DNA from: Agromyces sp. S2-1-8
Lineage (GTDB): Bacteria > Actinomycetota > Actinomycetes > Actinomycetales > Microbacteriaceae
Direction: 5' to 3'
Length of the DNA stretch: 64,000 bases
Assembly (NCBI RefSeq): GCF_021129215.1
Contig: NZ_JAJOLP010000001.1
Location: 2,790,001-2,854,000, forward strand
Positions 1,634 to 63,890 of this stretch are shown one piece after another (position 1 is the first letter of the stretch; the number at the start of each line of letters is the position of its first letter). The notes beneath the pieces are model-generated. The model did no database searches. It was not told where the DNA came from and saw nothing but the letters and a program-made list of their open reading frames with translations. Position numbers and translations under genes: made by a program.

Positions 1634-1667
1634 GCGGGCGGATGCCTCCCCCGAAGCATCCGCCCGC
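1634..1667 (-). terminator. Terminator hairpin after the FtsX-like permease
   Basis: A perfect 12-bp stem has arms GCGGGCGGATGC (1634-1645) and GCATCCGCCCGC (1656-1667) with a 10-base loop. It lies 24 bases downstream of the permease stop codon. There is no long T tract. The left arm carries one copy of the GGATGCCTC 9-mer described in the findings. Confidence 0.7.
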
Positions 1668-1691
1668 CCTTCCCACCTCCTCGCGCCGCCC

Positions 1692-3089
1692 CTATTCGAC
1701 CGCGAGGGCTGCGACCGGCGACACGCGCATCGCGCGACGCGCCGGAGCGATGGACGCGGCGAGCGTGAGCACGCCCGCTGCGACGATGAGCGCGCCGATC
1801 ATGACCCACGGGATGCCGGGGAAGACGAACACCGGCTGACCCTGCGCGCCGCCGAGCAGCGCCTGGGCGCCCGCCCAGCCGTACCCGAAGCCGAGCACGA
1901 GGCCCGTGAGCGTGGCAGCGACGGTGAGGGCCGCACTCTCGACGACGATCATGCGTCGCAGCTGCCGCCGGTCGAAGCCGAGCGCGCGCAGCAGGCCGAG
2001 CTCCCTGGAGCGCTGCAGCACGCTGAGCGACAGCGTGTTGACCATGCCGATCGCCGCGATGAGCGCGCTGAAGCCGATGAGCACCGTGAAGACCGCGATC
2101 GTCGCGTTCAGCATCGGCTCGATGCCGGCGAACACCTCGGGCTGCGCCTTCTGGGCGGCGAGGATCATCGCGCGGTACGACTCCATCGTGACCGAGAACG
2201 TCGTGATGAGCGTGACGCCGATGACGAGGCCGATCGTCATGCGCGAGCTGCGCTCGGGGTTGCGCACCGCGTTCTCGGCGGCGAGGCGTGCGGCGGGCGA
2301 GCGACCGAACAGACGCCCGACGAGCCGCAGCACGGGCGGCATGACGACGTCGGCGCCGAGCACGACGCCCGTGAACGACACGATGCCGCCGACCATGCCG
2401 ATGAGCACACCCTCCGGCCGGGTGAGCCCCACGACGACGCCCACCGCGAGCAGGGCCACCCCCACGACGACGAGCACCGCCGCCGTGATGTTGCGGCCGC
2501 GGCGACGGCCGACGGCCTCCTGGCTCTGCGGGTTCGCGTTGCCGATCGCCTCGGCCGGGCGCACCTTGAGCACCCGCCGCGACCCGACCCACGACGCCAC
2601 CCAGGTCGTGAGGGCGACGGCGATCGCCGGCAGCACGACCGAGACGTTGAGGTAGTCGTACTCGGTCTGGGGCAGCATCCCGCTCGCGACCGCGGAACGG
2701 GCGAGGCCGTACGCCGATGCCGTGCCGAGCAGGATGCCGATCGCCGCACCCGCGAAGCCGATGACGAGCCCTTCCTTCGCGATCTGCGCGCGCTGGGCGC
2801 GTGCGCTCGAGCCGATGAGACGAAGAAGCGCGATCACGCGAGTGCGTCCCGCGACGACCGTCGCGACCGTGTTCGTGGTGACGATCGCGCTCACGTACAC
2901 GGCGATGACGATGAACACCGTCGCGAGCACGCTGAGCATGAGTGCGACGGTGTCGCTCTCGCCCGTGACGTCGTCCGCCCGGATCGCCGCGGCCAGGAGG
3001 CCGGTCACCTGCAGGAGCAGCACGCCGAACGTGCCGGCGATCGTCGCGACCACGAGCGTCGGCCACTGGTCCCGGAATCGCGTGCGCAT
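1692..3089 (-). CDS. ABC transporter FtsX/MacB-like permease
   Basis: Membrane subunit of an ABC exporter, 465 residues. Two FtsX-type blocks are visible: the first around residues 10-170 (transmembrane segments near 13-33, 50-72 and 108-128, then a coupling segment ending VRPAEAIG), the second around residues 255-465 ending in APARRAMRVSPVAALAVE. It lacks the large extracellular domain of classical MacB. The start overlaps the stop of the ATPase gene (ATGA), so the two are translationally coupled. It is the last gene of the kinase-regulator-ATPase-permease group. The substrate is unknown; peptide or antibiotic export is typical of such sets. Confidence 0.9.
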   Translation of the reverse strand: MRTRFRDQWPTLVVATIAGTFGVLLLQVTGLLAAAIRADDVTGESDTVALMLSVLATVFIVIAVYVSAIVTTNTVATVVAGRTRVIALLRLIGSSARAQRAQIAKEGLVIGFAGAAIGILLGTASAYGLARSAVASGMLPQTEYDYLNVSVVLPAIAVALTTWVASWVGSRRVLKVRPAEAIGNANPQSQEAVGRRRGRNITAAVLVVVGVALLAVGVVVGLTRPEGVLIGMVGGIVSFTGVVLGADVVMPPVLRLVGRLFGRSPAARLAAENAVRNPERSSRMTIGLVIGVTLITTFSVTMESYRAMILAAQKAQPEVFAGIEPMLNATIAVFTVLIGFSALIAAIGMVNTLSLSVLQRSRELGLLRALGFDRRQLRRMIVVESAALTVAATLTGLVLGFGYGWAGAQALLGGAQGQPVFVFPGIPWVMIGALIVAAGVLTLAASIAPARRAMRVSPVAALAVE

Positions 3090-5808: not shown

Positions 5809-5924
5809 CGCGCTCGACTGCGCCGAGAGGGGCTCAGCGGCGCGGAATCATCCTCGAGTGGTACGAGAGACGGCGCCCCGATCGCACGCCCTCCGAGGCA
5901 TCCCCGCCCCGTCGCATGCTCGAC

Positions 5925-10827: not shown

Positions 10828-11928
10828 TCAGCCGAGGAACCGGTCGCGGAGCCGGGCGAACAGCCCCTGCTGGAAGTGGCTGAGCTCGGGCTCGGGCGAC
10901 CGCTTCGACGCCGCGAACTGCGAGATCAGATCGCGCTCCTTCGACGACAGCTTCGTCGGCGTGACGACCTGCACGCCGATCTTGAGGTCGCCGCGGCCGT
11001 TGCCGCGGAGCTTGGTGACCCCGCGGTCCTTCACGGTCAGGATCTCGCCGCTCTGCGTGCCGGCCTTCACCTCGAGCTCGACGTCGCCGTCGAGACCGGG
11101 GATCGTCGCGTCCGTTCCGAGGATGGCGTCGGTCATCGCGACCTCGAGGGTCGCGAGCAGGTCGTCGCCGTTGCGGCTGAACACCTCGTGGTTCTTGACC
11201 TTGATCTCGAGGTAGAGGTCGCCGTTCGGTCCACCGGCGGGGCCGGCCTCGCCGGAGCCCGGCATCTGCAGGCGAACACCCGTGTCGACGCCCGCAGGGA
11301 TGTCGACCGGCACCGTACGACGTGCGCGCACGCGCCCCTGGCCCTGGCAGGTGATGCAGGGCGTGGCGATGATCGTGCCGTAGCCGCGGCAGGTGCCGCA
11401 CGGGCTCGAGGTCATCACGTTGCCGAGGAGCGAGCGCACCTGGCGCTGGATCTGGCCGCTGCCGTGGCAGATGTCGCACGTGACGGGCGAGGTGCCCGGC
11501 TGGCAGCACGACCCCTGGCAGGTCTCGCAGCGCACGGCCGTGTCGACCTCGATGTCGCGGTGGGTGCCGAAGATCACCTCGTCGAGGCCGACCTCGACGC
11601 GGATCAGGGCGTCCTGGCCGCGCTCACGCCGCGACCGCGGGCCACGGCTCTGCTGGCCGGCACCGAAGAACGTCTCGAAGATGTCGCCGAAGCCGCCGAA
11701 GTTCTGGCCGCCGAAGCCGCCCTGGCCGCCGCCGAGGTCGTACTGCTGGCGCTGCTTGGGGTCGCTCAGCACGTCGTACGCGTGGGTCACCTCTTTGAAG
11801 CGCTCGGATGCCTCGGCGCCCGGGTTCACGTCGGGGTGGAGTTCTCGCGCGAGGCGGCGGTACGCCTTCTTGATCTCGTCGGGGGTGGCGTCGCGGGAGA
11901 CGCCGAGGACCTCGTAGTGGTCGGCCAC
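10828..11928 (-). CDS. dnaJ: Chaperone DnaJ (DnaJ2 type)
   Basis: Hsp40 co-chaperone of 366 residues that stimulates DnaK. The J domain has HPD at residues 31-33. A Gly/Phe-rich linker follows (about 75-105), then a four-motif zinc region and the CTD substrate-binding domains. Three zinc motifs are regular ([24 protein letters not shown]). The first reads CETCQGSC, with Cys in place of the usual Gly and another Cys next to it. Location beside hrcA rather than grpE-dnaK marks it as the second actinobacterial DnaJ. Confidence 0.95.
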
Positions 11929-11976: not shown

Positions 11977-12999
11977 TCAGTTCTCGCCGAGCGTGCGGGA
12001 GAGGTATCGGGCGACGGCGCGGACGGCCGCCATGCTGTTTGAATAGTCCATTCGGGTCGGCCCGACGACGCCGAGGCGCGAGATGTCGCGCCCGGGGATC
12101 TCGAACGCACTCGACACGATCGACGTCTCGCCGAGGCCGAACGAGGCGTTCTCTCGGCCGATGCGAACGGCGACGGCGTGCTCGTCGGTCGCCATCTCGC
12201 CGAAGAGCCTGAGCAGCACGACCTGTTCCTCGATCGCCTCGATCACCCCGAGGATCGACCCGGCGAAGTCCTGTTCGGTGCGCACGAGGTTCGCGGCACC
12301 CGCGACGACCAGCCGGTCGCTGCGCTGCTGGCGCGCCTGGTCGGCGAGCGTCGCGGCGAGCGTGTGCAGCACCGCGGCGTGGCGCCGGTCGACGACGTCG
12401 AGCTCGCCCGACAGCAGCTCCGAGGCATCCGTCATCGTGGTGCCCGCGACGAGCTCGTTGAGGCGGTGCCGGAGCGACGCGAGCGTCTCGTCGTCGACCG
12501 GTTCGGCGAGCTCGGCGAGCCGCTGCTCGACCTGGCCGGAGTCGGCGATGAGGATGCAGAGCACGCGGGAGGGTGCGAGCGCGACGAGCTCGACGTGACG
12601 CACCCGTGCACTCGAGAAGCTCGGGTACTGCACGACCGCGAGCTGCTTCGTGAGCTGGGAGATGAGGCGAACGGTGCGGGCGAGCAGTTCGTCGAGGTCG
12701 CTCGACTCGCCGAGGAAGGTCTCGATCGCCTGTCGCTGCGCCGAGCTCAGCGGACGCACGTCGGTGAGCTGGTCGACGAAGACGCGATAGCCCTTGTCGG
12801 TCGGAATGCGGCCCGACGACGTGTGCGGCGCCGCGATCAGCTCCTCCTCTTCGAGGAGTGCCATGTCGTTGCGGATGGTCGCGGCCGAGACGCCGAAGGC
12901 GTGGCGTTCGACGATCGTCTTCGAGCCGACGGGTTCGCGCGAGGCGACATAGTCCTGCACGATCGCGCGGAGCACCGCGAGACTGCGTTCGGAGACCAT
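11977..12999 (-). CDS. hrcA: Heat-inducible transcription repressor HrcA
   Basis: Repressor of 340 residues that binds CIRCE and depends on GroEL for activity in studied bacteria. An N-terminal winged helix (GVSAATIRNDMALLEE, about residues 35-50) precedes a GAF-like HrcA domain. The ATG at 12999 follows a purine-rich GAGGAAG/GCGAGGG stretch. A perfect CIRCE element lies 24-50 bases upstream, so it autoregulates the whole hrcA-dnaJ-rsmE-HIT-phoH-ybeY-CNNM-era operon. Confidence 0.97.
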   Translation of the reverse strand: MVSERSLAVLRAIVQDYVASREPVGSKTIVERHAFGVSAATIRNDMALLEEEELIAAPHTSSGRIPTDKGYRVFVDQLTDVRPLSSAQRQAIETFLGESSDLDELLARTVRLISQLTKQLAVVQYPSFSSARVRHVELVALAPSRVLCILIADSGQVEQRLAELAEPVDDETLASLRHRLNELVAGTTMTDASELLSGELDVVDRRHAAVLHTLAATLADQARQQRSDRLVVAGAANLVRTEQDFAGSILGVIEAIEEQVVLLRLFGEMATDEHAVAVRIGRENASFGLGETSIVSSAFEIPGRDISRLGVVGPTRMDYSNSMAAVRAVARYLSRTLGEN

Positions 13000-14133: not shown

Positions 14134-15371
14134 TACTCGACCACCGGAGCGTCGAGCAGCCGCCGCACCACCGCGTCGGCGAGGAGCCGCCCCTTCCGCG
14201 TGAGCGTCAGCACGCCGGAGAGGGCGGCTCTCGCGTCGACGAGGCCGTCTGCGATGAGCCCGGCGACCGCATGACGGCCGCCGGTGTGCAGCGAGGCGAG
14301 CTCGAGCCCCTCCCGGATCCGCGTCGCGAGCAGCACGCGCTCGGTCTCGCGCGTCGGTCCGTCGAGCACTTCGCGGCCCACGGCGGGCGAGATGCCCTTC
14401 GCGAGGCGTTCGGCGTACGCCGAGGGATGCTTCGCGTTCCACCAGCGCACGCCGCCGACGTGGCTGTGCGCGCCCGGGCCGACGCCCCACCAGTCGTCGC
14501 CCCGCCAGTACCCGAGGTTGTGGCGCGACCGGTGCCGGGTGCCGCGCGCCCAGTTGCTGACCTCGTACCAGTCGTAGCCGGCCGCGGCGAGCGACTCGTC
14601 GGCGAGCTCGTACATGTCGGCCTCGAGGTCGTCCGACGGCGTCGCGAGCTCACCGCGGCGGATCTGCCGGGCGAGCTTCGTGCCGTCCTCCACGATGAGC
14701 GCGTACGCGCTCAGGTGGTCGGGGCGCTGCGCGATGGCGTGCTCGAGGCTGCGCCGCCAGTCGTCGAGCGACTCCCCCGGCGTGCCGTAGATGAGGTCGA
14801 GGCTGACGTCGAGCCCTGCGTCGCGGGCCCACTCGACGACCTGCGGCACCCGCTCGGGGTCGTGCGTGCGGTCGAGCGCCGCCAGCACGTGCGGAACCGC
14901 CGACTGCATGCCGAACGACACGCGCGTGAACCCGCCGGCCGCGAGCTCGTCGAGCTCTCGCCGTCCGACCGAGTCGGGATTCGCCTCGGTCGTGACCTCG
15001 GCGCCGGGCGCGAGGCCGAACTCGTCGCGCACGGCGCCGAGCATCTCGACGAGGTCGGCGGCGGGCAGGAGGGTGGGCGTGCCGCCGCCGAAGAACACGG
15101 TCTCGACCGGGCGGGAGGGGACTTCGGATGCCTCGAGCACGCGCCGCGACATCCTGATCTCGTCGATCGCCTGGCCCGCGTAGTCGGCCTGCCGGGCGCC
15201 GCGCAGCTCGTCGGACGTGTACGTGTTGAAGTCGCAGTACCCGCACCGCACCCGGCAGAACGGCACGTGCACGTAGACGCCGAACGCGCGGTCCGCGGCG
15301 CCCGCGGCCGCCTGGGCCGGCAGCAGGCCGTCGGCCGGAGCCGGTTCGCCGAGCGGCAGCGCCGAGCCCAC
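14133..15371 (-). CDS. hemW: Radical SAM heme chaperone HemW
   Basis: Radical SAM protein of 412 residues, formerly called an oxygen-independent coproporphyrinogen III oxidase homologue; HemW inserts or transfers heme. The cluster motif CRVRCGYC gives Cys39, Cys43 and Cys46 (CX3CX2C), followed by FFGGGTPTLL, and a C-terminal HemN-type domain. The GTG start at 15371 lies 2 bp after the DUF1990 stop and gives a full-length protein with a 30-residue extra N-terminus. The lepA-hemW pairing is common in Gram-positive bacteria. Confidence 0.94.
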   Translation of the reverse strand: MGSALPLGEPAPADGLLPAQAAAGAADRAFGVYVHVPFCRVRCGYCDFNTYTSDELRGARQADYAGQAIDEIRMSRRVLEASEVPSRPVETVFFGGGTPTLLPAADLVEMLGAVRDEFGLAPGAEVTTEANPDSVGRRELDELAAGGFTRVSFGMQSAVPHVLAALDRTHDPERVPQVVEWARDAGLDVSLDLIYGTPGESLDDWRRSLEHAIAQRPDHLSAYALIVEDGTKLARQIRRGELATPSDDLEADMYELADESLAAAGYDWYEVSNWARGTRHRSRHNLGYWRGDDWWGVGPGAHSHVGGVRWWNAKHPSAYAERLAKGISPAVGREVLDGPTRETERVLLATRIREGLELASLHTGGRHAVAGLIADGLVDARAALSGVLTLTRKGRLLADAVVRRLLDAPVVE

Positions 15372-16055: not shown

Positions 16056-17930
<1,875 letters not shown>

Positions 17931-17995
17931 CCTGTCGATTCTCCCATGATTCGGCTTCCGACTTTCGACGGATGCCTCGCGGCGGGCGCCGCGGC

Positions 17996-19875: not shown

Positions 19876-20636
19876 GCATGGTCGGCGCCCGCATCGTGCT
19901 CGTGCACGGCATCCGAACCTCGGCCACGATGTGGCGGCGGCAGGTCGCCGCGCTCACGGCGCACGGCGTCGACGTCGTCGCGGTCGACCTGCCCGGGCAC
20001 GGGTCGCGCATGGCCGAGGAGTTCTCGATCGACGCCGCGATGGCGGTGATCGAGGAGGCGCTGAACCCGCCGCAGACCGATGGGACGGCTCCGGATGCCG
20101 CGCCGCCGCGTCTGCTCGTCGGTCTCAGCCTCGGCGGCTACCTGTCGATCGAGTTCGCGGCGAGGCATCCGGATCGTCTCGACGGCCTCGTCGCGGCCGC
20201 GTGCGGGACCGTGCCTCGCGGGCCCGGTCTCGCCGCCTACCGGTCGATCGCCGCGGCCATCGCCCGTCTGCCCGATCGCGGACGATGGCTGAACGACGCG
20301 ACCGCCGCCCTCTTCCTCGCGCCCGACGCGCTCGCCGATGTGGTCGCAGGCGGCGTCGCACTCGACGTGATGGCCCCCGCGCTCGCGGCCGTCGGGCACC
20401 TCGATCCGGTGGCGGCGCTCGACGCCGTCCGGGTGCCGATCTGGTTCGTGAACGGACGCTACGACCACTTCCGGCTGCAGGAACGGCGGCTGCTGCGCGC
20501 GGCGCACGACGCTCGGCTCGTCGTCGTGCCCGGGGCCACCCACCTCGTGAGCCTGACCGCGGCCGACGGCTTCACCGCGGTCGTGCTCGGCGCCGTCGCC
20601 GAGCTCGAACGGCGCGCCGCCGCCCGGCGCCGCTGA
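19872..20636 (+). CDS. Alpha/beta hydrolase
   Basis: Serine hydrolase fold of 254 residues from the GTG at 19872 (or 252 from the ATG at 19878). The oxyanion region LVHGIR is at the start. The nucleophile is probably Ser86 in GLSLGGY, the acid Asp is in NGRYDHF near 200 and the His is in GATHLVSL near 226. No signal peptide. The GTGA overlap with the response regulator makes it the third gene of a signalling operon. The substrate is unknown; the sequence resembles the MenH/BioH-like group only at the level of the fold. Confidence 0.85.
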   Translation: MSMVGARIVLVHGIRTSATMWRRQVAALTAHGVDVVAVDLPGHGSRMAEEFSIDAAMAVIEEALNPPQTDGTAPDAAPPRLLVGLSLGGYLSIEFAARHPDRLDGLVAAACGTVPRGPGLAAYRSIAAAIARLPDRGRWLNDATAALFLAPDALADVVAGGVALDVMAPALAAVGHLDPVAALDAVRVPIWFVNGRYDHFRLQERRLLRAAHDARLVVVPGATHLVSLTAADGFTAVVLGAVAELERRAAARRR

Positions 20637-20814: not shown

Positions 20815-22170
20815 ATGGTTCCCTCCCAGCTCTACCGTGCGACCGTCGTCGACACGCCCGTCAGTCCGTTCGAGGGCGGCGAGGCGCGCTACGACGCCGA
20901 CAGTGCGATCGTCGTCGAAGGCGGCGTCATCCGCTTCCGCGGCGCATTCGACGAGGCATCCCGGCGGCACCCCGACGCGACGGTCGTCGACCTGCGCGAC
21001 GGCGTGCTGCTTCCCGGGCTCGTCGACACGCACGTCCACTTCCCGCAGCTGCGTTCCATGGCGGGGCTCGGCCTGCCGTTGCTCGACTGGCTCGACCGGT
21101 ACACCCTGCCCGAGGAGACGCGGTTCGTCGACGACGCGTACGCGCGCGAGGTCGCCCCGCCGTTCCTCAACGCGCTCGCGGCGGCCGGCACGACGAGTGC
21201 GCTCGTGTTCGGATCGCACTTCGCCGGCGCCATGCGCGAGTTCTTCGGCGCGGCGTCGTCGTCGGGCCTGCGCATCACGAGCGGGCTCGTCGTCGGCGAC
21301 CGGATGCTGCTCGACGGGCTCTACACGACGCCCGAGCGAGCGCGTGAGGAAGCGGCCGCCCTCGTCGAGGCATGGCACGGCCGCGGCCGCCTGCGCTATG
21401 CGGTCACGCCGCGGTTCTCATTGTCGGCGTCCGACGACCTGCTCGCCGCGTGCAGCGACACGTTCGCCTCGCGCGACGACCTCTGGTTCACCTCGCACCT
21501 CAACGAGAACCCCGCCGAGGTCGACACGGTCGCGAGCCTCTTCCCCGACCGCCGCGACTACCTCGACACGTACGATCACCACGGGCTCGTGAACCGCCGT
21601 TCGGTCTTCGCGCACAGCGTGCACTCGACGGTGCCCGAACTCGCCAGGATGGCGGAGGCGGGCGCCTCGGTCGCGCACTGCCCGACGTCGAACTCGGCGC
21701 TCGGCAGCGGGCTGTTCCCGTTGCGTCGCCATCTCGACGCCGGCGTGCGCGTCGCGCTCGGCACCGATGTCGGGGCCGGCAACGGGTTCAGCCTGTTCAA
21801 GGACGGCATCCAGGCGTACTTCATGCAGATGCTGCTCGGCCCCGACGGCGTGCAGCTCGAGCCCGCGCATCTCCTCTACCTCGCGACGCTCGCCGGAGCC
21901 GAGGCGCTCGGGCTCGACGGTGTCGGCCATCTCGGCGTCGGCATGCAGTTCGACGCGATCCACGTGCGCCCGGCGCCGGGCTCGGCGTACGACATCGTGC
22001 TGTCGCGCTCGGAGTCGGCGGGCGACGTGCTCGCTCGCACGTTCGCGCTGGCGACCACCCATGATGTCGCTGCGACATGGGTCGGCGGCGACCTCGTGCA
22101 CGCGCGCTCGTCGGTCCTCGGCGACGAGGGCGCCTCGGCCATGACCGACCCGGTTCCGCTGCACGGGTGA
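20815..22170 (+). CDS. guaD: Guanine deaminase
   Basis: Amidohydrolase of 451 residues converting guanine to xanthine and ammonia. PGLVDTHVHFPQ has the metal ligands His73 and His75 and the Phe-Pro-Gln typical of guanine deaminases. Further ligands are in FTSHLNENPAEV, SVHSTVPEL and the Asp of LGTDVGAGNGFSLF. The ATG at 20815 follows AAGGTGG at 8 bases; a frame reaching further upstream lacks a ribosome binding site. No xanthine dehydrogenase or urate genes are adjacent. Confidence 0.93.
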   Translation: MVPSQLYRATVVDTPVSPFEGGEARYDADSAIVVEGGVIRFRGAFDEASRRHPDATVVDLRDGVLLPGLVDTHVHFPQLRSMAGLGLPLLDWLDRYTLPEETRFVDDAYAREVAPPFLNALAAAGTTSALVFGSHFAGAMREFFGAASSSGLRITSGLVVGDRMLLDGLYTTPERAREEAAALVEAWHGRGRLRYAVTPRFSLSASDDLLAACSDTFASRDDLWFTSHLNENPAEVDTVASLFPDRRDYLDTYDHHGLVNRRSVFAHSVHSTVPELARMAEAGASVAHCPTSNSALGSGLFPLRRHLDAGVRVALGTDVGAGNGFSLFKDGIQAYFMQMLLGPDGVQLEPAHLLYLATLAGAEALGLDGVGHLGVGMQFDAIHVRPAPGSAYDIVLSRSESAGDVLARTFALATTHDVAATWVGGDLVHARSSVLGDEGASAMTDPVPLHG

Positions 22171-22198
22171 TGCCGGCGGTCGGATCGTCCTGCGACCC

Positions 22199-22231
22199 GC
22201 CCGGCAGTCCCGCTTTGGTGGGCCGCCGGGC
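22199..22231 (+). terminator. guaD terminator overlapping the rpsT promoter
   Basis: The outer stem GCCCGGC (22199-22205) and GCCGGGC (22225-22231) encloses an inner stem, CCCGC with GTGGG, around a TTTG loop. It starts 28 bases after the guaD stop and covers the candidate rpsT -35 box. Confidence 0.55.
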
Positions 22232-22244
22232 GAACTGGTAGTGT
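22215..22244 (+). promoter_or_regulatory. Candidate rpsT promoter
   Basis: TTGGTG (22215-22220), an 18-base spacer, then TAGTGT (22239-22244). It would give a 5' leader of about 95 bases before rpsT. The leader contains GCCGTG and CACGGC arms that could pair. Confidence 0.4.
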
Positions 22245-23900: not shown

Positions 23901-26333
23901 CTACGGGCGGCCACCGACCCCGCCCGCCCGTTCGCTCCAGACCGCGAAGCCGCCGGCGGTCGCGTCGACTGCGATCGATCCCATCTCGTCGGTGCGCAGC
24001 GCCGTCGTGCCGGCCAGCTCGAGCAGGTCGAGCGCCCGCTCGGTCGGGTGCCCGTAGCCGTTGTCGGCGCCGACCCCGACGAGCCCGATCGCCGCGTGCA
24101 GGCGTTCGTAGAGGCGGTCGCTCTGGTCGGACGACCCGTGGTGGGCGACCTTGACGAGGTCGACGTCGCCGATCGTGGCCGACCGCAGCATGCGATCCTG
24201 CGACTCCTCGCCGAGATCACCGAGGAAGACGCCCCGATAGCCGGGCGAGACGAGGTCGAGCACGACGCTCGCGTCGTTGCCGGGTTGCGCCTCGGGCTGC
24301 GGCCACAGCACCCGCCAGCTCGACACGCCGAGCGTGCCGTGCACGCCGGCGGTGACCTCGACGGCCCGTGCTCCCGACACGACGAGCGGCTCGAGGACTC
24401 GTGACGAGCGATCGCCGTCGAGCGGGCCGTGCAGCACGGTGCCCGCGCGGCCGAGGATCGCCGGCGTTCCGCCCACGTGGTCGGCGTCCCAGTGGGTCAG
24501 TACGACGAGGTCGAGACGATCGACGCCGAACAGCTCGAGGCACCTGGTGAGCGCGGCCGCGTCGGGCCCGGTGTCGATGAGGGCGACGGACGTGCTCGAA
24601 CGCACGAGCACGGCATCTCCCTGCCCGACGTCGCAGGCCGCGACATCCCATTGCGCGGGTCTCGTCGCGCGAGCGACGAGCGGGGCACCGCCCGCCAGGC
24701 CGACCGTGATCGCGACGGTCACGACCAGCAGGCTCGCGATCGACACGCGACCGCGTCGCGACAACGGCGGCCCCATCACGAGCCGCAGCGCGAGTACCGT
24801 GCACACCCCGAGGAGCACGGCGCCCGCGGCATCGGGGAGCCACGCCAGCCTCCCGCCGGGCAGGGACGCGCCCGTGTGGGCGACGACCGCGATCCATTGC
24901 GCCGGCCACCACGCGAGCTGCATCGCCGCGAACCCCACCGAGGGCAGCACCGGCAGCAGCAGGCAGCCGATCAGTCCTGCGATGGTGCCGACGGGCGCCG
25001 CCGGTGCCGCCAGCAGGTTCGCGGGAACGCCGTAGACCGCGATCGCCGGGTCGAGCAGCACGAGCACGGGCTGGCAGGCGAGCTGCGCGGCGAGCGGCAC
25101 GCCCAGCACGAATGCGAGCGGCGTCGGCATCACCCGGGCGAGCGCCGTCGAGAGCGGCGCCGCGAGCAGCAGCAGGCCGGCCGTCGCGCAGACCGACAGC
25201 GCGAATCCGTAGTCGCGCGCGTACCACGGATCGACGACCAGCAGCACGACGACGGCCAGCGCGAGGGCCGCCACTCCCCCGCCGGGACGGCCGACGGCCA
25301 GCGCCGCCAGCACGACGACGGCCATGACCGCGGCACGCACGACGCTCGACTCGGGGGTCACGAGCACGACGAACGCCGCGAGAGCGACGAGCGCAACGAG
25401 CACCCGGATGCCACGGCGCAGGCCCGCCGCGGCGGCCACCGCGAACGCTGCCGCGGTGATGATGGCGCAGTTCGCGCCCGAGACGGCGGTCAGGTGACTG
25501 AGCGAACTCGCCTTCATGTCGTCGTCGAGTTCGGCGCCGACCGCGCTCGTGTCGCCGATCGCAAGTCCGGGCACGAGCGAACCGCCGTCGCCGTCGAGAC
25601 GGGACGCGGCATCGGCGAACCGGGTGCGCAGCTCGCCGCTCCACGCGAGCCACGGCGGCGGCGGCTCGACGACGACGTCGCCGTCGGCATGCAGGTCGAA
25701 CGCCGCGCGCTCCGCGCCGGGTGATGCGGTCGCCCGGCCGGTGAAGGCGAGCCGTGCACCGAGCTGGAGCTCGGCGGGCACGGCTTCGACGACACCGCTC
25801 ACCGGGATCGCTCGGGTCGCCCGGCCGTCGACCGCGACCAGCCGGCCCTCGAAACGCAGTGAGGCCGTCGCCCGCGGACGGGGCGCGTCCCCGGTCGCGG
25901 TCTGCCCGGCGATGCCGGCCGCTGCGCCGCCACGCCCATCGACCGCCGAAGGGGACGCCGCGGCCGGAGTCGCGGCACCCCCGTCGGTGGCAGGGCCCCA
26001 CATCGTCATGAGCCGACGCGGCGCCGCGGTCAATTCGACGACCACCGCGATGCCCTCGCGCTCCGCCGCCGCCGTCGCGAGCGGCGACGAACTCCGCGCT
26101 CCGAGGGCGCCCGACGCGCTCGTCGCCACGAGCGCGGCGACCGCCGCGCAGACGAGCGCGGTCGCGGCGATCGGCCGCCGCGTGCGGAGCGCGACGACGA
26201 GCGCGAGGACCGCCGCCATCCAGGTCGCACCAGCCACGACCCCCGCATCGAGCCCGATGTCCGGGGAGAGCACCGCCAGCCAGGCGCCGGCCCACGCCGT
26301 GCAGGCCGGGGCGGCGAGCCGCAGACCGGGCAT
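23901..26333 (-). CDS. ComEC/Rec2 DNA-uptake channel with metallo-beta-lactamase domain
   Basis: Inner-membrane competence protein of 810 residues, proposed to translocate single-stranded DNA. An N-terminal membrane region and DUF4131-like part (1-240) precede the Competence domain (about 250-520, GLAIGDTSAVGAELDDDMKASSLSHLTAVSGANCAI). A metallo-beta-lactamase-like domain follows (about 550-800) with LTHWDADHVGG and KVAHHGSSDQSD. The start is 2 bp after the comEA stop. Whether the organism is transformable cannot be judged from this window. Confidence 0.93.
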   Translation of the reverse strand: MPGLRLAAPACTAWAGAWLAVLSPDIGLDAGVVAGATWMAAVLALVVALRTRRPIAATALVCAAVAALVATSASGALGARSSSPLATAAAEREGIAVVVELTAAPRRLMTMWGPATDGGAATPAAASPSAVDGRGGAAAGIAGQTATGDAPRPRATASLRFEGRLVAVDGRATRAIPVSGVVEAVPAELQLGARLAFTGRATASPGAERAAFDLHADGDVVVEPPPPWLAWSGELRTRFADAASRLDGDGGSLVPGLAIGDTSAVGAELDDDMKASSLSHLTAVSGANCAIITAAAFAVAAAAGLRRGIRVLVALVALAAFVVLVTPESSVVRAAVMAVVVLAALAVGRPGGGVAALALAVVVLLVVDPWYARDYGFALSVCATAGLLLLAAPLSTALARVMPTPLAFVLGVPLAAQLACQPVLVLLDPAIAVYGVPANLLAAPAAPVGTIAGLIGCLLLPVLPSVGFAAMQLAWWPAQWIAVVAHTGASLPGGRLAWLPDAAGAVLLGVCTVLALRLVMGPPLSRRGRVSIASLLVVTVAITVGLAGGAPLVARATRPAQWDVAACDVGQGDAVLVRSSTSVALIDTGPDAAALTRCLELFGVDRLDLVVLTHWDADHVGGTPAILGRAGTVLHGPLDGDRSSRVLEPLVVSGARAVEVTAGVHGTLGVSSWRVLWPQPEAQPGNDASVVLDLVSPGYRGVFLGDLGEESQDRMLRSATIGDVDLVKVAHHGSSDQSDRLYERLHAAIGLVGVGADNGYGHPTERALDLLELAGTTALRTDEMGSIAVDATAGGFAVWSERAGGVGGRP

Positions 26334-26335
26334 GG

Positions 26336-27034
26336 TCAGAGCGCCACGAGGTCGACGAGCCCCGAGTACACCGCATCGCCGATGCCCGCGACGTCGAGCA
26401 GCTGGTCGGTGCTCGTGAACGGTCCGTTCGCCTCGCGCCAGTCGATGATGCGCTGCGCCAGTGCCGGACCGATGCGCGGCAGCATGTCGAGCTCGGCGAC
26501 GTCGGCGGTGTTGAGGTGCACCTTGCCGTCGCCCGCGCCGCCCGCCCCCGTGCCCCCGGCGGCAGCACCGTCGCCGGCGGCACCGACGGCCGGCACCTCG
26601 CCGACCTTCGGCACGATCAGCTGCTCGCCGTCGGCGACCGCCCGAGCCAGGTTCACCCCGGCCGGGTCGGCCTCGGCCGTGAGGCCGCCGGCGGCGGCGA
26701 TCGCGTCGACGACGCGCGCGCCCTCGTCGAGCTGGACGATCCCAGGACTCGCGACCGCGCCGAGCACGTGCACGAGCACGACGGGCGGTGCAGCGGTCGC
26801 GACCGTCGCGGCCGCATCACCGGAGGCACCAGCACCCGACGCGCCGTTGCCCGCGAACCCGACCTCGCCCTGTTCGCCGCCGCCCGATGCCGCGAACGAC
26901 ATCACCGCGGCGACGACGACCGCCGCGATGAACAGCGCGACAGCGGCGCCCACGCCGAGGCGCACGCGCGGCGACGCCCGCCGCGCGGACGGGTCGAGCA
27001 CGGCCGACGGGTCCGGCGAGGAGTTGGGCGGCAT
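26336..27034 (-). CDS. ComEA-like DNA-binding competence protein
   Basis: A 232-residue membrane-anchored DNA-binding protein. One transmembrane helix (about 27-49) is followed by a Gly/Ala-rich spacer, an SLBB domain (VVLVHVLGAVASPGIVQL, about 84-145), another Gly/Ala linker and a helix-hairpin-helix pair (NTADVAELDMLPRIGPALAQRIIDWR, VAGIGDAVYSGL). TAGCGT lies 6 bases before the ATG, so the comEA-comEC-holA operon may start as a leaderless mRNA. Confidence 0.92.
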   Translation of the reverse strand: MPPNSSPDPSAVLDPSARRASPRVRLGVGAAVALFIAAVVVAAVMSFAASGGGEQGEVGFAGNGASGAGASGDAAATVATAAPPVVLVHVLGAVASPGIVQLDEGARVVDAIAAAGGLTAEADPAGVNLARAVADGEQLIVPKVGEVPAVGAAGDGAAAGGTGAGGAGDGKVHLNTADVAELDMLPRIGPALAQRIIDWREANGPFTSTDQLLDVAGIGDAVYSGLVDLVAL

Positions 27035-45525: not shown

Positions 45526-46576
45526 AGCGGGCGACCGCCCGGTCGCGAGACCGCCGGAACGACGCGAGTCCGCGGTTGACCTGCCGCGCCCACAAGGGCC
45601 CGCGGTAGATGAAGGCCGAGTACCCCTGCACGAGCGTCGCACCTGCGTCGAGCCGGTCCTGCACATCGGCGGCCGTCTCGACGCCGCCGACCGAGATCAC
45701 GCACAGGTCGTCGGGCACGCTGCGGCGCACGACGCGCAGCACCTCGAGCGAGCGGGCGGCGAGCGGGGCACCCGAGAGGCCGCCGGCACCGATGGCTTCG
45801 ATCGCGGATGCCTCGGTCGTGAGTCCCTCGCGGGAGATCGTCGTGTTCGTGGCGATGATGCCGTCGAGGCCGAGCCGCACGACGAGCTCGCAGATGCGCT
45901 CCACCTCCGAGTCGGCGAGGTCGGGCGCGATCTTCACGAGGAGCGGGGTGGTTCCCGCGGCCTCGCGCACGGTCTCGAGGAGCGGTGCGAGGGCGTCGAG
46001 CTCCTGCAGCCCACGGAGGCCGGGTGTGTTCGGAGAGCTCACGTTGACCACGAGGTAGTCGGCGTACGGGGCGAGCAGCTTCGCGCTGCGCACGTAGTCG
46101 CCCACGGCGTCCTCGACGGCGGTCACCCGGCTCTTGCCGATGTTGACACCGAGCACGGGCCGGTGCGAGCGGCGCGACAGCCGCGAGAGGCGACCGGCCG
46201 CAGCATCCGCCCCGCCGTTGTTGAACCCCATGCGGTTGATGAGCGCCCGGTCCTTCACCAGCCGGAAGAGGCGCGGCCGCTCGTTGCCCGGTTGCGCGAT
46301 CGCCGTGATCGTGCCGACCTCGACATGCCCGAAGCCGAGCTGGCCGAGACCGATGACCGCGCGAGCGTCCTTGTCGAAACCCGCGGCCACGCCGAACGGC
46401 GACGGGAATCGGAGCCCGAGCGTCTCGACCGCGAGTGACGGGTCGGGGGCGGTGAACCGCTCGACGAGCCGTCCGAGGCCGAGCGTCGGCAGGCCCCGGA
46501 TCACGCTGAACGCGAGGTGGTGCGCGTCTTCGGGGTCGAGCTTCGTGAGGAAGAGGGAGAAGAGGAGTCGATACAT
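45524..46576 (-). CDS. pyrD: Dihydroorotate dehydrogenase (quinone), class 2
   Basis: Membrane-associated FMN enzyme of 350 residues that oxidises dihydroorotate to orotate with quinone. An N-terminal amphipathic segment (YRLLFSLFLTKLDPEDAHHLA) marks class 2. FMN and substrate motifs are GVAAGFDKDA, NRMGFNNGGAD, VVNVSSPNTPGLR with the catalytic Ser, and SVGGVETAADVQDRL. The ATG at 46576 was chosen from this N-terminus. TACCCT is 9 bases upstream. Confidence 0.96.
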   Translation of the reverse strand: MYRLLFSLFLTKLDPEDAHHLAFSVIRGLPTLGLGRLVERFTAPDPSLAVETLGLRFPSPFGVAAGFDKDARAVIGLGQLGFGHVEVGTITAIAQPGNERPRLFRLVKDRALINRMGFNNGGADAAAGRLSRLSRRSHRPVLGVNIGKSRVTAVEDAVGDYVRSAKLLAPYADYLVVNVSSPNTPGLRGLQELDALAPLLETVREAAGTTPLLVKIAPDLADSEVERICELVVRLGLDGIIATNTTISREGLTTEASAIEAIGAGGLSGAPLAARSLEVLRVVRRSVPDDLCVISVGGVETAADVQDRLDAGATLVQGYSAFIYRGPLWARQVNRGLASFRRSRDRAVAR

Positions 46577-53006: not shown

Positions 53007-53650
53007 CAGGCCTCGGCGACGGCGGCCGCACGCGGCCCGTCGGCGTCGCCCGCGGCCGTGGTCTCGCCCGACGGAGCGTCGCCGTCGAGCGCGGTCGTTC
53101 CGGAGGCATCCGCCCGGTCGGTCTTCGGCGCGCGCGTCTCGCGCGTGCCGTCGAGCCCGACACCGCGGATGGTGAGGATCATGAACAGCACCATGCTCGA
53201 CACGATCGCCATGTCGGCGACGTTGTAGATCGCCGGCAGCAGCCATGGCGTCGAGATGAAGTCGATCACGTGCCCGAGCCCGAAGCTCGGCTCTCGGAAG
53301 AGCCGGTCGGTCAGGTTGCCGAGCACCCCGCCGAGCAGGAGCCCGAACACGAGCGCCCACGCGACGGAGCGGATACGGCGGGAGAACCAGATGATGAACG
53401 TGATGACGGTCGCTGCGAGGATCGTGAAGATCCAGGTCATGCCGCTCGCGAGCGAGAACGCCGCGCCGGGGTTCCGCACGAACTGCCACTGGAGCACGGA
53501 GCCCAGCACCGGCACGACCTCGCCTTCGGTGAGGTTCGAGACGACGAGGAACTTGCTCAACTGGTCGAGGCCGTACGCCGCGAGTGCGGCGCCGGCCAGG
53601 ACCAGCAGGGCGGTGGTGGTGCCGACCTTCGCGGCCCGCTCAGCCGCCAA
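53006..53650 (-). CDS. lspA: Lipoprotein signal peptidase
   Basis: Aspartic membrane protease (signal peptidase II) of 214 residues. NPGAAFS is near 60-66, and the catalytic Asp pair is probably Asp130 in GHVIDFI and Asp146 in YNVADMAI. Four membrane helices are visible. A polar, acidic tail from about residue 165 onward (rich in Asp, Ala and Thr) makes it about 45 residues longer than typical LspA. The TTG start at 53650 overlaps divIVA by 11 bp and is the only reasonable one. Confidence 0.95.
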
Positions 53651-55279: not shown

Positions 55280-55951
55280 CTAACCGGCGGTCGGCCGGTT
55301 CCCGGTGATTGCCGTTCCGATCCGGAGGTGTGTCGCACCCTCCAAGATCGCGTCGCGGAAATCGTGGCTCATCCCCATGGACAGGTCGGTCGCGTCGGGC
55401 GCGAGGCGCACGACGCGCTCGGAGAGCTCGCGGACGCGGGCGAAGGCGGGCCGTGCCGGCTCGTCGAGCGGCGCCACCGCCATCAACCCGCGCAGCACGA
55501 GGCCGGGGGTCTCGAGCACGTGCTCGACGAGCGCCTCGAGCTCCGCCGGGGCGACGCCGCCGCGGCCCGGATCATCCGTGAGGTTCACCTGCACGAAGCA
55601 GTCGACGGAGGTCTCGTCGGAGCGCAGCACGTCGACGAGCGCACGCCGGTCGATCGAGTGTATGGCCGACGCGTAGGTGCGGACCTGCCGTGCCTTCTTG
55701 CTCTGCAGCTGGCCGATGAAGTGCCAGTGCAGGCCGAGCTCCGCGAGCTCGGCGGCCTTCGCCTGAGCCTCCTGGTGGCGGTTCTCCCCCACGTCGCGCA
55801 CGCCGAGGGTCGCGAGATCGCGCACGAGCGAGGCGGGCTGGAACTTCGTGACCACGATGGTCGTGATCTCGGATGCCTCGCGGCCGGCGTCGGCCGCGGC
55901 GTCCGAGATCGCCGCCTGCACGGCGGCGAGCCGGAAACCGAGCCCGCTCAC
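55280..55951 (-). CDS. PLP homeostasis protein YggS
   Basis: A 223-residue alanine-racemase-fold protein binding pyridoxal phosphate. The PLP lysine is in VVTKFQP near residue 35; HFIGQLQSKKARQV and GLMAVAP are typical. GTG start. It lies 49 bp after ftsZ and 33 bp before sepF, the usual place, but without the pgeF/YfiH gene often found between ftsZ and yggS. Confidence 0.93.
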   Translation of the reverse strand: MSGLGFRLAAVQAAISDAAADAGREASEITTIVVTKFQPASLVRDLATLGVRDVGENRHQEAQAKAAELAELGLHWHFIGQLQSKKARQVRTYASAIHSIDRRALVDVLRSDETSVDCFVQVNLTDDPGRGGVAPAELEALVEHVLETPGLVLRGLMAVAPLDEPARPAFARVRELSERVVRLAPDATDLSMGMSHDFRDAILEGATHLRIGTAITGNRPTAG

Positions 55952-58523: not shown

Positions 58524-59924
58524 TCACCCGCGCTCCCGCTCGAGCGATCCGAGCAGCTGCGGCACGATGCGGTAGACGTCACCGCAGCCGAGGGTGATGA
58601 CGAAGTCGCCGTCGCGGGCGATCTTCGCCGTGTGGTCGGCGGCCGCCTGCCAGTCGGCGATGAACGCGACCTTCTCGGGATCGGCGAACCGCTCGCTCAC
58701 GAGTGCGCCCGTCACCCCGGGCACCGGATCCTCGCGGGCACCGTACACGTCGAGCACGACGGTCTCGTCGGCGAACTCCTCGAGCACCTCGGCGAACTCC
58801 TTCGCGAAGGCCTGGGTGCGGCTGTAGGTGTGCGGCTGGTGCACGGCGATGATGCGTCCGTCGCCGACGACGGTGCGCGCCGCGGCCAGTGCCGCCGCGA
58901 CCTCCGTCGGGTGGTGCGCGTAGTCGTCGTAGACGCTCACGCCGCCCACGGTGCCGTGGAGTTCGAAGCGGCGACCGGTGCCGGTGAAGCGGGAGATGCC
59001 CTCGAGCGCGGCGGCCGGCTCGAAGCCCAGCCCGACGAGCACGGCGAACGCGCCTGCGGCGTTGATCGCGTTGTGCTTGCCCGGGATGCGCAGCCTCGCC
59101 GCGTAGTCGACACCGTCGTAGGCGATGACGAAGGCCACCGGGCCGTCGGTCTCGATCGAGTGCACCCGCACCGAGGCATCCGCCGCCTCGCCGAACGTGA
59201 CGACGTTCGCGTGGCCGAGCCGCTCGTGCACGCGCTGCGCACCGGCGTCGTCGGAGGAGATCACGACGAACTCCGAGGCGCGGTCGGCGAAGTCGACGAA
59301 CGCCTGCTCGAACGCCTCGCGCGAGCCGTAGTGGTCGAGGTGGTCGGGATCGACGTTCGTGATGAGCGCGACGGCGGTGTCGTAGAGGAGGAACGAGCCG
59401 TCGGACTCGTCGGCCTCGACGACGAAGAGCTCGCCCTCGCCTGCGGACGACGAGACGCCCAGCCCGTCGATGACGCCGCCGTTCACGAAGCTCGGATCGG
59501 CCCCGAGCGCGAGGAGGCCGGTGACGATCATGCCGGTCGACGTGGTCTTGCCGTGGGCGCCGGCGACCGACACGAGGCGCTGGCCCGAGATCAGCCAGGC
59601 GAGCGCCTGCGAGCGGTGCAGCACGGGCAGCCCGCGCTCGAGGGCCAGCTGGTACTCGGGGTTGTCCTGCCAGAGCGCGCCGGTCACGACGACCGCCTCG
59701 GCGTCGCCGAGGTTCGCGGCGTCGTGCCCGATCGCGATCTCGGCACCGAGCTCGCGGAGCGCGGCGATGTTCGCCGAGTCGCGCACGTCGGAGCCGGTCA
59801 CCCGATGGCCGGCACCGATGAACAGGCGCGCGATGCCGCTCATGCCGGACCCCCCGATGCCGACGAAGTGCACGGCGCCGAGCTCGGCGGGGATCTGGAT
59901 CGAGAGATCGGGCTTGATGGTCAC
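58524..59924 (-). CDS. murC: UDP-N-acetylmuramate-L-alanine ligase
   Basis: ATP-dependent ligase of 466 residues adding L-Ala to UDP-MurNAc. The N-terminal Rossmann motif is [17 protein letters not shown], the ATP-binding P-loop [13 protein letters not shown], and substrate-binding DESDGSF and [14 protein letters not shown] are present. It lies 93 bp after murG and 13 bp before ftsQ. Confidence 0.97.
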
Positions 59925-61109: not shown

Positions 61110-62374
61110 CGCGCGGCTCGCTCCGCCGCACGGGCCCTTCGCGCCGCCGAACGGGCGGCGAGGCGGGCGGATGCCTCGGGCGTCCGCGCGACCGACAGGA
61201 CGACGCCGATCGCGACGAGGGTCGTGAGCAGGGCGGTGCCTCCCGCGGAGACGAGCGGCAGCGGGACACCGAGGACGGGGAAGACTCCGAGCACGACACC
61301 GATATTGACACAGGCTTGGCCGATCACCCACACCATGACCGCCGCCGTGGCCGCCCGGCCGAACGGCGTGCCCGCGCCGCGGAACACCCGCGCGAAGGCG
61401 ATCGCGAGCAGTACGAACAGGCCGATCACGACGATCGCGCCGATGAGGCCGAGCTCCTCGCCGATGATCGCGAAGATGAAGTCGTTGTCGGCTGCCGGCA
61501 GCCACGACCACTTCGCCGCAGAGTTCCCGAGGCCGACGCCGAAGATGCCGCCGTTCGCGAGGGCGAAGGTACCGTGCTGGATCTGCCAGCAGTCGTTGAC
61601 CGCGTCGCCCGTGCCGCCGGCCTCGCAGTTCGCGTCGAGGAACGAGGTGATGCGGCGCATGCGGCTCTCGCTCGAGAACGCGACGATCACGAACCCGACG
61701 ACGGCGATGATGATCGGCGGCAGGAGCAACCGGAGCCGCACCCCGATGAGGAAGAGCGCGCCGAGCAGCATCGCGCCCATGATCATGACGGTGCCGAGGT
61801 CGCCGCCGAGGAGCACGAGCCCGATCGCACCGCCGCCGACGAGCAGGATCGGCAGGATGCCGTGCGTGAAGTCGTCGAGCCGGTCCTGCTTCTTCGTGAC
61901 CATGAGCCCGAGCCAGATGACCAGGGCGACCTTGATGAACTCCGACGGCTGGAACTGCACGGGGCCGATCGCGAGCCAGTTCGTGTTGCCGCCGACCTCG
62001 ATGCCCATCGGGGTCGCCACGACGAGCAGCTGCGGGATGCAGGTGACGATGAGCGCCGGCCAGGCGACGCGCATCCAGAATCGCTCTGGCAGCCGGCTCG
62101 CGATGAGCATGGCTGGGATGCCGATGACGGCGAACACGCCCTGTCGCACCGCCTGGTCGAGGAGGCCGCCGTCTTCGAGGTACGACTCGACGAGCGAGGA
62201 GGAGAGCACCATGACGAGGCCGAGCACGACCAGGAAGAGGGTCGTGCCGAGCAGCAGGAAGTAGTCGGCCGACTCGGCGCGGAACAACCGCCCCAGGCGG
62301 ATCCGCGCCGCCGAGACGCCCTGCTGGGCGGGCTCAGCCTTCTGCGGGCGGCTCGTGCGGGGCGGAGTCGCCAT
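61106..62374 (-). CDS. ftsW: Peptidoglycan glycosyltransferase FtsW
   Basis: SEDS-family polymerase of 422 residues with about ten membrane helices. Typical are NTNWLAIGPVQFQPSEFIKVALV, the extracellular loop with the Asp of GGDLGTV, and GVFPVLGVPLPLVSAGGTALL. The C-terminal tail is rich in Arg/Ala. The ATG at 62374 follows GGGAGGTGAGG and overlaps murD by 41 bp, the longest overlap in the window. Confidence 0.96.
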   Translation of the reverse strand: MATPPRTSRPQKAEPAQQGVSAARIRLGRLFRAESADYFLLLGTTLFLVVLGLVMVLSSSLVESYLEDGGLLDQAVRQGVFAVIGIPAMLIASRLPERFWMRVAWPALIVTCIPQLLVVATPMGIEVGGNTNWLAIGPVQFQPSEFIKVALVIWLGLMVTKKQDRLDDFTHGILPILLVGGGAIGLVLLGGDLGTVMIMGAMLLGALFLIGVRLRLLLPPIIIAVVGFVIVAFSSESRMRRITSFLDANCEAGGTGDAVNDCWQIQHGTFALANGGIFGVGLGNSAAKWSWLPAADNDFIFAIIGEELGLIGAIVVIGLFVLLAIAFARVFRGAGTPFGRAATAAVMVWVIGQACVNIGVVLGVFPVLGVPLPLVSAGGTALLTTLVAIGVVLSVARTPEASARLAARSAARRARAAERAAR

Positions 62375-63890
62375 CCGCCTCACCTCCCAGCATCGCTCTG
62401 ACCGCTTCGTGGAACCGCCGGCCGCGATCGCCGTAGTCGGCGAACTGGTCCATGGACGCCGCCGCGGGCGCGAGGAGCACGGTGTCCCCGTCCTCGGCGA
62501 CCGCCGCAGCCAGTGCGACCGCATCGGGCATCACCTGCTCAGTGTCGTCGGCGACGACCTCGAAGAGCGGCAGTTGCGGCGCGTGTCGCCGGAACGCATC
62601 GACGAGCTCGGCGCGATCGCGACCGATGACGACCGCGGCGCGCAGCCGGCCGACGTGCGCTGCGACGAGCGAGTCGGCGTCGACGCCCTTGAGCAGGCCG
62701 CCCACGATCCAGACGACCCGGCCGAAGGCCTTCAGGGATGCCTCGGCGGCATGCGGATTCGTCGCCTTCGAGTCGTCGATCCAGCGGATGCCACCGGCGA
62801 CGGCGACGGTCTCGATGCGGTGGGCGTCGAGCCGGAACTCGGCGAGTGCGTCGTGGATCACACCGACCGGGACCCCGTGGGAACGCGCGAGCGCGGAGGC
62901 GGCGAGGATGTTGGCGACGACGTGCGGCGCGGCCAGCCCGCGCGGCTCGAGCTCGTCGAGGGTCGTGAGCTCGAGGGCGGCCGTACGCCGGTCATCGAGG
63001 AACGCCCGATCGCACAGGATCCCGTCGACGACGCCGAAGTCGCTCGGTCCGGGCACGTCGAGCCCGAAGCCGATGGCGCGGGCGCCCTCCTCGACCTCGG
63101 CGTCCTCGACCATGCGCAGGGTCGCCTCGTCGGCGCGGTTGTAGACGCACGCGACCTTCGTGTTCTCGTAGACCTTCGCCTTCGCAGCGCGGTAGGCCTC
63201 GAACGAGCCGTGCCAGTCGAGGTGGTCGTCGGCGAGGTTGAGCACGACGCTCGCCCACGGGTGCACGGCGCCGGGACCCGTGGTCGGCAACGTGTGCAGC
63301 TGGTAGCTCGACAGCTCGACGACGAGCACGTCGAAGCCCGCCGGGTCGCGCACGGCGTCGAGCACGGGCACGCCGATGTTGCCGCACGGCGCCGCGCGCA
63401 GGCCGTTCGCCGCGAGGAACGTCGCAGTCATCTGGACGGTCGTGGTCTTGCCGTTGGTGCCGGTCACGAGGATCCACTCGGCCGCGTTCACCTTGTCGCG
63501 CACCCGCCAGGCCAGCTCGATGTCGCCCCATACCGCCACGCCCTCGCTCCCCGCCCATCCGAGGACGGCATGGTCGGGATGGAATCCCGGTGAGGCGACC
63601 ACGACGTCGGGGGCGAACGCGACGAGCTCGTCGGGCACCGCGTCGAGCGGGTGCCGCACGAGCCGCGCGCCGATGACGTCGAGGATCCGCGCGCGGTCGT
63701 CGTCGACGTCGGGGGCGAGGACGAGCACCTCGGCGCCGAGCTCCGTCAGTGTGTCGGCGACGGCGAAACCCGTCACGCCGACGCCGAGCACGGCGACACG
63801 GAGACCACGCCAGTCGGCGTTCCAGCTCGTCAGCGTGTCGAGGCGGTTCGCGGCGCGGCCCGGGTCATCCGCCGTCAACGCTGCAGCCAC
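62334..63890 (-). CDS. murD: UDP-N-acetylmuramoyl-L-alanine-D-glutamate ligase
   Basis: ATP-dependent ligase of 518 residues from GTG at 63890. The Rossmann start is [19 protein letters not shown], the P-loop [33 protein letters not shown] and [16 protein letters not shown] are typical. The start overlaps the mraY stop by 16 bp. An N-terminal extension of about 28 residues precedes the family start. Confidence 0.96.

Follow-up and report, generated by a model that had tools for sequence, protein, structure and literature searches.

A 9-letter word with lineage dialects around a GGATGCC core, a candidate DNA uptake sequence of Agromyces and other Microbacteriaceae

Why should one 9-letter word recur, on both strands and inside genes as well as between them, along a bacterial chromosome? 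The question is raised by a 64 kb stretch of Agromyces sp. S2-1-8 (contig NZ_JAJOLP010000001.1, positions 2,790,001 to 2,854,000; this whole stretch is called the window here), in which GGATGCCTC occurs in 20 exact copies, ten per strand. A preliminary description of the window had given the same copies at the same positions against an expectation of about 0.8, and the count is confirmed: 100 dinucleotide-preserving shuffles of the window contain 0.92 copies on average (maximum of 4), and the word ranks first among all 9-mers of the window relative to an order-3 Markov model (20 observed, 1.03 expected). The reading that we favour, at a probability of roughly 0.58 and on the strength of sequence comparisons, is that GGATGCCTCG, an extended form of the word, serves as the DNA uptake sequence of a competence system built on a Flp pilus.

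The genome amounts to 4.10 Mb in two contigs, the second of 84 kb, and holds 1,519 copies (753 and 766 by strand), compared with 3 and 0 copies of a control in which the word is reversed letter by letter. Composition was assessed on a 464 kb sample, comprising the window, 19 more stretches of the chromosome and a 20 kb piece of the second contig. A count against a third-order Markov model, a check proposed in the preliminary description, leaves the excess in place on this sample (176 copies, 8.2 expected), and an order-5 model predicts 31.5. A G lies directly 3' of the word in 158 of the 176 copies and a C directly 5' in 59%; the full unit is (C)GGATGCCTCG. One mark of an uptake sequence is a short (9 to 12 nt) word that is highly enriched genome-wide, and GGATGCCTC is such a word. 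Of its 27 single-letter neighbours, 16 are at or below expectation and eight exceed it by a factor of about two or more, led by GGATGCCGC (67 observed, 21.7 expected), GGATGTCTC (17 observed, 2.6 expected), GGACGCCTC (23 and 8.6) and GGATGCCCC (19 and 5.9). Two other words, CGATCGCG and GCGATCGC, the latter being the HIP1 core, are likewise about twofold over-represented in the same sample.

Preference for particular codons, dipeptides or base composition in a G+C-rich genome might produce such a word. Rough gene calls on 444 kb of chromosome assign 120 copies to coding sequence and 54 to intergenic sequence, with two straddling, and 100 of the coding copies fall in just two gene-relative frames (56 antisense and 44 sense), the frames read as EAS and DAS, which is the pattern that favours this explanation. 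Coding copies nevertheless occur in all six frames, and controls that preserve the protein fall far short of 120: synonymous-codon shuffling within genes yields 5.6 coding copies (maximum of 11 in 100 runs), and a model that keeps the protein and the usage of each codon given the previous one yields 11.8 (maximum of 19 in 50 runs). The density, moreover, peaks outside genes (1.311 per kb between genes and 0.298 per kb within them, a 4.4-fold difference). Codon, dipeptide and codon-pair usage was ruled out as the cause on these counts, and the chance that a preference of this kind makes the word is negligible. The preliminary description had maintained that the excess exceeds codon preference, frame-shifted and intergenic copies included, and had singled out a codon-pair-preserving shuffle and the intergenic density as the decisive comparisons; its view survives both.

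The two orientations show no relation to replication. However the chromosome is cut into two arcs, no more than 55% of the 229 sites used (from 614 kb) take one orientation, and this skew was matched in 98% of 200 permutations. A simpler count of orientations (118 and 111) presumed an origin at the start of the contig; because the gene calls there gave no support for it, the origin-free two-arc test is preferred. Chi, KOPS and similar recombination or segregation words are oriented relative to replication, so that the lack of polarity argues against words of this type, and an oriented recombination or segregation word was ruled out. The same argument had been made earlier from the absence of strand bias in the window, with which the genome-wide strand counts and the two-arc test agree. 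Occurrence in both orientations without replication polarity is a second mark of uptake sequences.

Among neighbouring pairs no more than 100 bp apart (494 kb), 8 of 10 are arranged as hairpin arms would be (P = 4e-4 for an expected share of one in four). A perfect inverted copy lies no more than 50 bp from 10 of 59 intergenic copies, compared with 1.6% of 2,300 control 9-mers. Five such inverted pairs and an imperfect one at 1634-1667 of the window fold at -27 to -48 kcal/mol (values without a shuffle control); the window hairpin itself gives an RNA fold of -28.2 kcal/mol over a 43-base stretch, again without a shuffle control. Intergenic excess together with inverted, hairpin-capable pairs, which uptake sequences also display, is thus found here, with the number of close pairs near chance. 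By the rough gene calls the window copies at 1640, 5895, 17970 and 32296 are intergenic. The hairpin and the 20 copies of GGATGCCTC in the window are as follows.

1634..1667, plus strand: hairpin between genes, including copy 1640 together with an imperfect inverted one
1640..1648, plus strand: copy, intergenic, within one arm of the hairpin
5895..5903, minus strand: copy, intergenic, upstream of an era-like gene
11806..11814, plus strand: copy, genic
12422..12430, minus strand: copy, genic
15126..15134, plus strand: copy, genic
17680..17688, minus strand: copy, inside lepA
17970..17978, plus strand: copy, intergenic, adjoining lepA
20162..20170, minus strand: copy, genic
20953..20961, minus strand: copy, inside an amidohydrolase-family gene
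30866..30874, plus strand: copy, genic
32296..32304, minus strand: copy, at the start of a pabB-like gene, intergenic by the rough gene call
33521..33529, minus strand: copy, genic
34689..34697, plus strand: copy, genic
37009..37017, minus strand: copy, genic
45806..45814, plus strand: copy, genic
53103..53111, minus strand: copy, genic
55871..55879, plus strand: copy, genic
59173..59181, minus strand: copy, genic
61169..61177, plus strand: copy, genic
62736..62744, plus strand: copy, genic

The copy at 32296 had been described as straddling the start of pabB; it does lie at that start, just upstream by the rough call, and the choice of start codon decides whether it straddles.

The second contig, presumably a plasmid, is poor in the word: 40 of its 84 kb contain 3 copies where 14.9 are expected (P = 2e-4), a fivefold scarcity. 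This bears on the proposal that a repair or mutation bias makes the word, or keeps it, in whatever DNA the cell replicates, as might be imagined for HIP1-like words. Such a bias would account for copies on both strands and in all frames, and for the copies of the core that are found in a phage and in the second contig. It sits badly with the depletion of that contig, with the asymmetry of a word of 9 to 10 letters and with the 16 of 27 neighbours that do not exceed expectation; flank preference also varies between congeners, as described below, which a conserved repair enzyme would not simply explain. We consider this origin improbable.

The word extends well beyond this genome. Eight named relatives traced through ComEC all belong to Agromyces. 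All 60 Agromyces genomes searched carry GGATGCCTC, in 131 to 1,734 copies each. For wider comparison a core ratio was defined as the whole-genome count of CGGATGCC divided by that of its reversed control. Of 150 Microbacteriaceae genomes, 101 have a ratio of 3 or more, 76 of 5 or more and 39 of 10 or more, and 16 stay below 1.5; by genus, the mean ratio is at least 3 in 60 of 85. In 184 genomes from 19 other families of the same order it ranges, by eye, from about 0.3 to 3.9; because those families reach 3.9, only ratios of at least 5 are clearly special to Microbacteriaceae. Counting words de novo in samples of 40 to 180 kb per genome reveals dialects around the fixed core, another mark of uptake sequences, with flanks that vary both within and between genera. 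A single genus has two, GYGGATGCCG (genome G154) and CGGATGCCGCG (G142); others are GACGGATGCC in G053 and G080, GCGGATGCCG and CGGATGCCGC in G057, CGGATGCCGC in G001 and GGATGCCGCG in G106. In G007 the core is weak in a 60 kb sample, yet the whole-genome ratio is about 9.

Some genomes without the core have other words. The top 8-mer of G121 is GCGGATCG; GCAGGATCC is found in G047 and more weakly in G087 and G004, GATCCGGATC in G096, a weak CGGATCCG in G272 and words of the GGAGGCGC type in G035 and G110. In the de novo counts no clear word emerged for G045, G010 or G014 (a 60 kb sample for the last). As a separate observation, GATCCGGATC is a palindrome, unlike the asymmetric words of the relatives of G096, and is strongly enriched, with a strand-summed count of 22 (11 sites) in 140 kb for an expectation of 0.15. 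The words of several of these core-less genomes contain GATC, and the core itself contains GGATG and GATGC, recognition sites of the type IIS enzymes FokI and SfaNI; both features are what a target of methylation or restriction-modification might show. Restriction normally depletes its target, however, whereas this word is enriched, and we know of no methyltransferase with a continuous asymmetric target of 9 to 10 bp and a drifting 3' end. A modification target therefore seems very improbable.

How the word changes was followed in the nearest relative found, G197, whose comEC is 82% identical and of which 138 kb were aligned at about 88% identity. Of 51 Agromyces sites 46 align, and GGATGC is kept at 39 of these, compared with 52% of anagram 6-mers (P = 3e-6); in the reverse comparison 24 of 31 aligned G197 sites keep GGATGC. 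Site conservation between relatives, which the preliminary description had put forward as a check, is thereby seen for the six-letter part and fails for the full 9-mer (see below). Letters 1, 4 and 7, which occupy third codon positions in the two main frames, are identical in 63 of 72 cases, where the background is 74% (P = 0.005); counting every third-codon letter of the word gives 83 identical out of 99 (P = 0.016). The eighth letter, T, is identical at just 26 of 45 aligned sites (P = 4e-7), a comparison in which selecting sites by the present word favours mismatches at newly changed letters to an equal degree for every letter, and in which gain in one lineage is pooled with loss in the other. 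It is kept at 4 of 12 intergenic, none of five third and 4 of 9 first codon positions. As GGATGC and the third-codon letters are kept and the eighth letter is often changed, the core appears to be fixed at the DNA level, with a tail that shifts where the protein permits. Drift of a tail over a fixed core is how dialects would arise.

Do these genomes have the machinery to read such a word? Two competence genes lie in the window, next to holA and leuS; lepA is also in the window.

23901..26333, minus strand: comEC, 810 aa, Competence and metallo-beta-lactamase domains, the competence DNA channel
26336..27034, minus strand: comEA, 232 aa, SLBB and helix-hairpin-helix domains, a secreted DNA-binding protein

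The 9.9 kb around these two genes (20962-30865) contain no copy of GGATGCCTC, where about 3.7 would be expected at the genome density; this may be chance. A ComEC domain is present in 148 of the 150 family genomes, and ComEC was dropped as a discriminator of word-rich genomes on account of this near universality. The Agromyces genome has two larger Tad clusters (named by eye and by Pfam matches) and, between acs and topA, a small tadA-tadBC-flp-tadE-tadF locus, in which tadA encodes a T2SSE ATPase, tadBC a T2SSF protein and flp a short pilin-like protein (Pfam DUF4244); the TadE- and Tad-like proteins of this topA-linked locus score just below the Pfam cut-offs. Its Flp resembles the competence Flp of Micrococcus luteus as printed in PMC6370729, the available part of which states that transformation of M. 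luteus requires Flp pili and contains no mention of an uptake sequence. At the level of genes, the host thus has ComEA, ComEC and a type IV filament, as would be expected of an organism with an uptake sequence.

From a set of 20 genomes, 13 were examined for the locus, and matches to tadA, tadBC, flp and tadE came up together in 12 (G000, G007, G004, G106, G121, G110, G096, G014, G286, G300, G314 and G381), the thirteenth being G272. No match to tadF was found in G110 or G014, and in G300 the contig ends inside tadF. The TadE- and TadF-like proteins, which are candidate receptors, each have two cysteines that are kept in G000, G106 and G272 (by eye). A different filament gene, for a two-domain PilC-type T2SSF protein, was noted in six of the 20 genomes: G004 (L157), G087 (L159), G047, G035, G110 and G314. 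In G004 its locus looks, by eye, like that of an entire type IVa pilus. The core ratio is 2 or less in all six genomes except G314, and as GCAGGATCC is found among them it is possibly a second, separately read word.

Two genomes appear to have lost both the core and an intact machine. In G272 (genus g85) there are 313 core and 122 control copies, a ratio of 2.6, compared with about 15 to 22 in six congeners. The topA-linked locus of G272 is split: a C-terminally truncated tadBC stands beside transposase frames (HTH_Tnp_1 and rve), and on another contig flp-tadE-tadF-topA stands beside a TIR-domain gene; the ComEC domain is complete. The locus stands together in the five g85 congeners examined (G106, G286, G300, G314 and G381; the sixth, G367, lies outside the set). 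In G096 (genus g15) there are 75 core and 120 control copies, a ratio of 0.6, compared with 289 and 118 (2.4) in its sibling G014, and the comEC frame of G096 starts no earlier than inside the Competence domain, leaving 575 aa; this is the weaker of the two cases. A tblastn search within 40 kb gave no match to comEA in G096, an absence that is uncertain because the same kind of search missed the ComEC of G087, which the Pfam model finds. These cases fit, and do not prove, a link between word and machinery.

One further record, of Microbacterium sp. NIBRBAC000506063 (L187), was reached through a search of plasmids for ComEA. Its comEC is interrupted by an island (NZ_CP072877.1 258710-275770) that carries a TIR-domain gene and a type I restriction-modification system. 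Since TIR-domain genes lie both at this comEC and at the split flp of G272, defence islands may use competence loci as landing sites. The 465 kb record is labelled a plasmid, holds leuS, rplU, rpmA, rpsT and holA, and looks like chromosomal DNA; GGATGCCG occurs 30 times in 40 kb of it.

An alternative that accommodates much of the above is that an abundant DNA protein inside the cell, acting in the nucleoid, in recombination or in segregation, binds the word and favours its sites throughout the genome, with a specificity that drifts by lineage. Genome-wide spread, a fixed core with changing flanks and intergenic excess are all compatible with a protein of this kind, and some genomes carry other GGAT-containing words though competence genes were matched in them. 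The absence of chromosomal polarity, the fivefold scarcity on the second contig and the skew towards hairpin orientation speak against it, and we regard it as rather unlikely. The preliminary description had proposed a methylation target, a nucleoid-protein site or a mismatch-biased motif; none of these is supported as the best reading. An uptake sequence, absent from that list, is preferred because of the lineage dialects on a fixed core, the inverted pairs, the scarcity on the second contig and the intact competence genes.

If GGATGCCTCG is an uptake sequence, a surface DNA receptor of the natural-transformation machine would recognize it outside the cell as a tag of self. The receptor would probably be a minor pilin of the topA-linked Flp (Tad) type pilus, or ComEA. 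Tagged DNA would be preferentially bound, pulled in by the pilus, handed by ComEA to ComEC and recombined, and alleles that carry the tag would spread, so that copies accumulate on both strands. They would build up between genes, and within genes wherever EAS or DAS is acceptable to the protein; intergenic inverted pairs would form hairpins and may double as terminators. A receptor that keeps the core GGATGCC, with a flank preference that drifts, would give rise to lineage dialects.

Several observations weigh against this reading. The losses number only two, the sibling of G096 is itself weak, and both G272 (a draft, with the weak CGGATCCG excess) and G096 may represent changes of dialect, not losses. 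G121 matches comEA, comEC and the Flp-type locus, yet is without GGATGCC, and a ComEC domain without a clear word is seen in G045 and G010. L187 still has 32 GGATGCC in 40 kb with an interrupted comEC, unless the break is recent, which would explain the persisting core. The second contig is poorer in the core and not free of it (13 GGATGCC in 40 kb), and one Microbacterium phage has 15 GGATGCC against 3 of the reversed word in 40 kb. Close pairs are about as numerous as chance predicts (10 observed and 7.2 expected in the 494 kb), so that only their orientation is skewed. Convergent gaps are mildly richer in copies (1.57 per kb, eight sites) than tandem and divergent gaps together (1.06 per kb); because the difference is slight, a terminator role of the inverted pairs is only suggested. 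In the comparison with G197 the full 9-mer is identical at 20 of 46 sites (43%), compared with 42% for anagram 9-mers, and the eighth letter is kept at 18 of 19 second codon positions. Lastly, matches to the TadE model PF07811 correlate with the word (P = 3e-5, a value that ignores kinship), and G007 and G090 are core-rich without such a match; PF07811 was set aside as support, as its matches come mostly from Tad clusters that are not linked to topA.

According to the available part of a 2025 paper, Neisseriaceae and Pasteurellaceae are the only families known to sort self-DNA by a short word (PMC12616744). We give even odds to the broader proposal that Microbacteriaceae would be a third such family, and the first in Actinomycetota, with GGATGCC dialects and an independently arisen Flp/Tad machine. 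In open-access PubMed Central (PMC), none of the titles and abstract openings among the matches listed concerned an uptake-type word in Actinobacteria, which leaves absence in print unproven; no paper on Agromyces and natural competence was found there, and a search with the letters of the motif gave, among the matches listed, titles all on unrelated subjects. If the proposal is true, such words would have arisen independently a third time, now in a Gram-positive phylum and with several dialects across dozens of genera, and so would be shown to evolve repeatedly. Transformation of Microbacteriaceae would become testable, and the family would provide a large set of genomes to compare in working out how DNA sequence is read by a pilus. 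A further suggestion, for work on laboratory species of the family, is to build the local dialect into donor DNA.

The DNA uptake sequence (DUS) of Neisseriaceae is described, in the accessible part of PMC3630211, as a word in thousands of copies with an invariant CTG core, eight dialects and inverted pairs linked to terminators. The Agromyces word resembles it as a numerous short word with a fixed core, dialects and inverted pairs, in a genome with ComEA, ComEC and filament genes, and transformation in Neisseriaceae likewise uses ComEA and ComEC together with a type IV filament. It differs in that the word is unrelated, the host is a G+C-rich actinomycetote without an outer membrane, the pilus is of the Flp/Tad type and not type IVa, no ComP-like receptor is known for the Agromyces word and uptake is here a prediction. 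The uptake signal sequence (USS) of Pasteurellaceae is, by the part of PMC12616744 at hand, a highly enriched 9-letter word with two named dialects. The Agromyces word shares its length, its high enrichment and the existence of dialects, and differs in having more than two of them in Microbacteriaceae, as well as in word, phylum and pilus type. Both words occur in either orientation, whether inside genes or outside them. HIP1-type words of cyanobacteria are likewise short and numerous; HIP1 is a palindrome, whereas GGATGCCTC is not its own reverse complement, and we know of no assigned role for HIP1. Like Chi and KOPS, GGATGCCTC is short, numerous and genome-wide, and unlike them it has no orientation relative to replication. 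With the Flp competence pilus of M. luteus, as set out in the available part of PMC6370729, the Agromyces system has in common a short Flp pilin, minor pilins, comEA and comEC.

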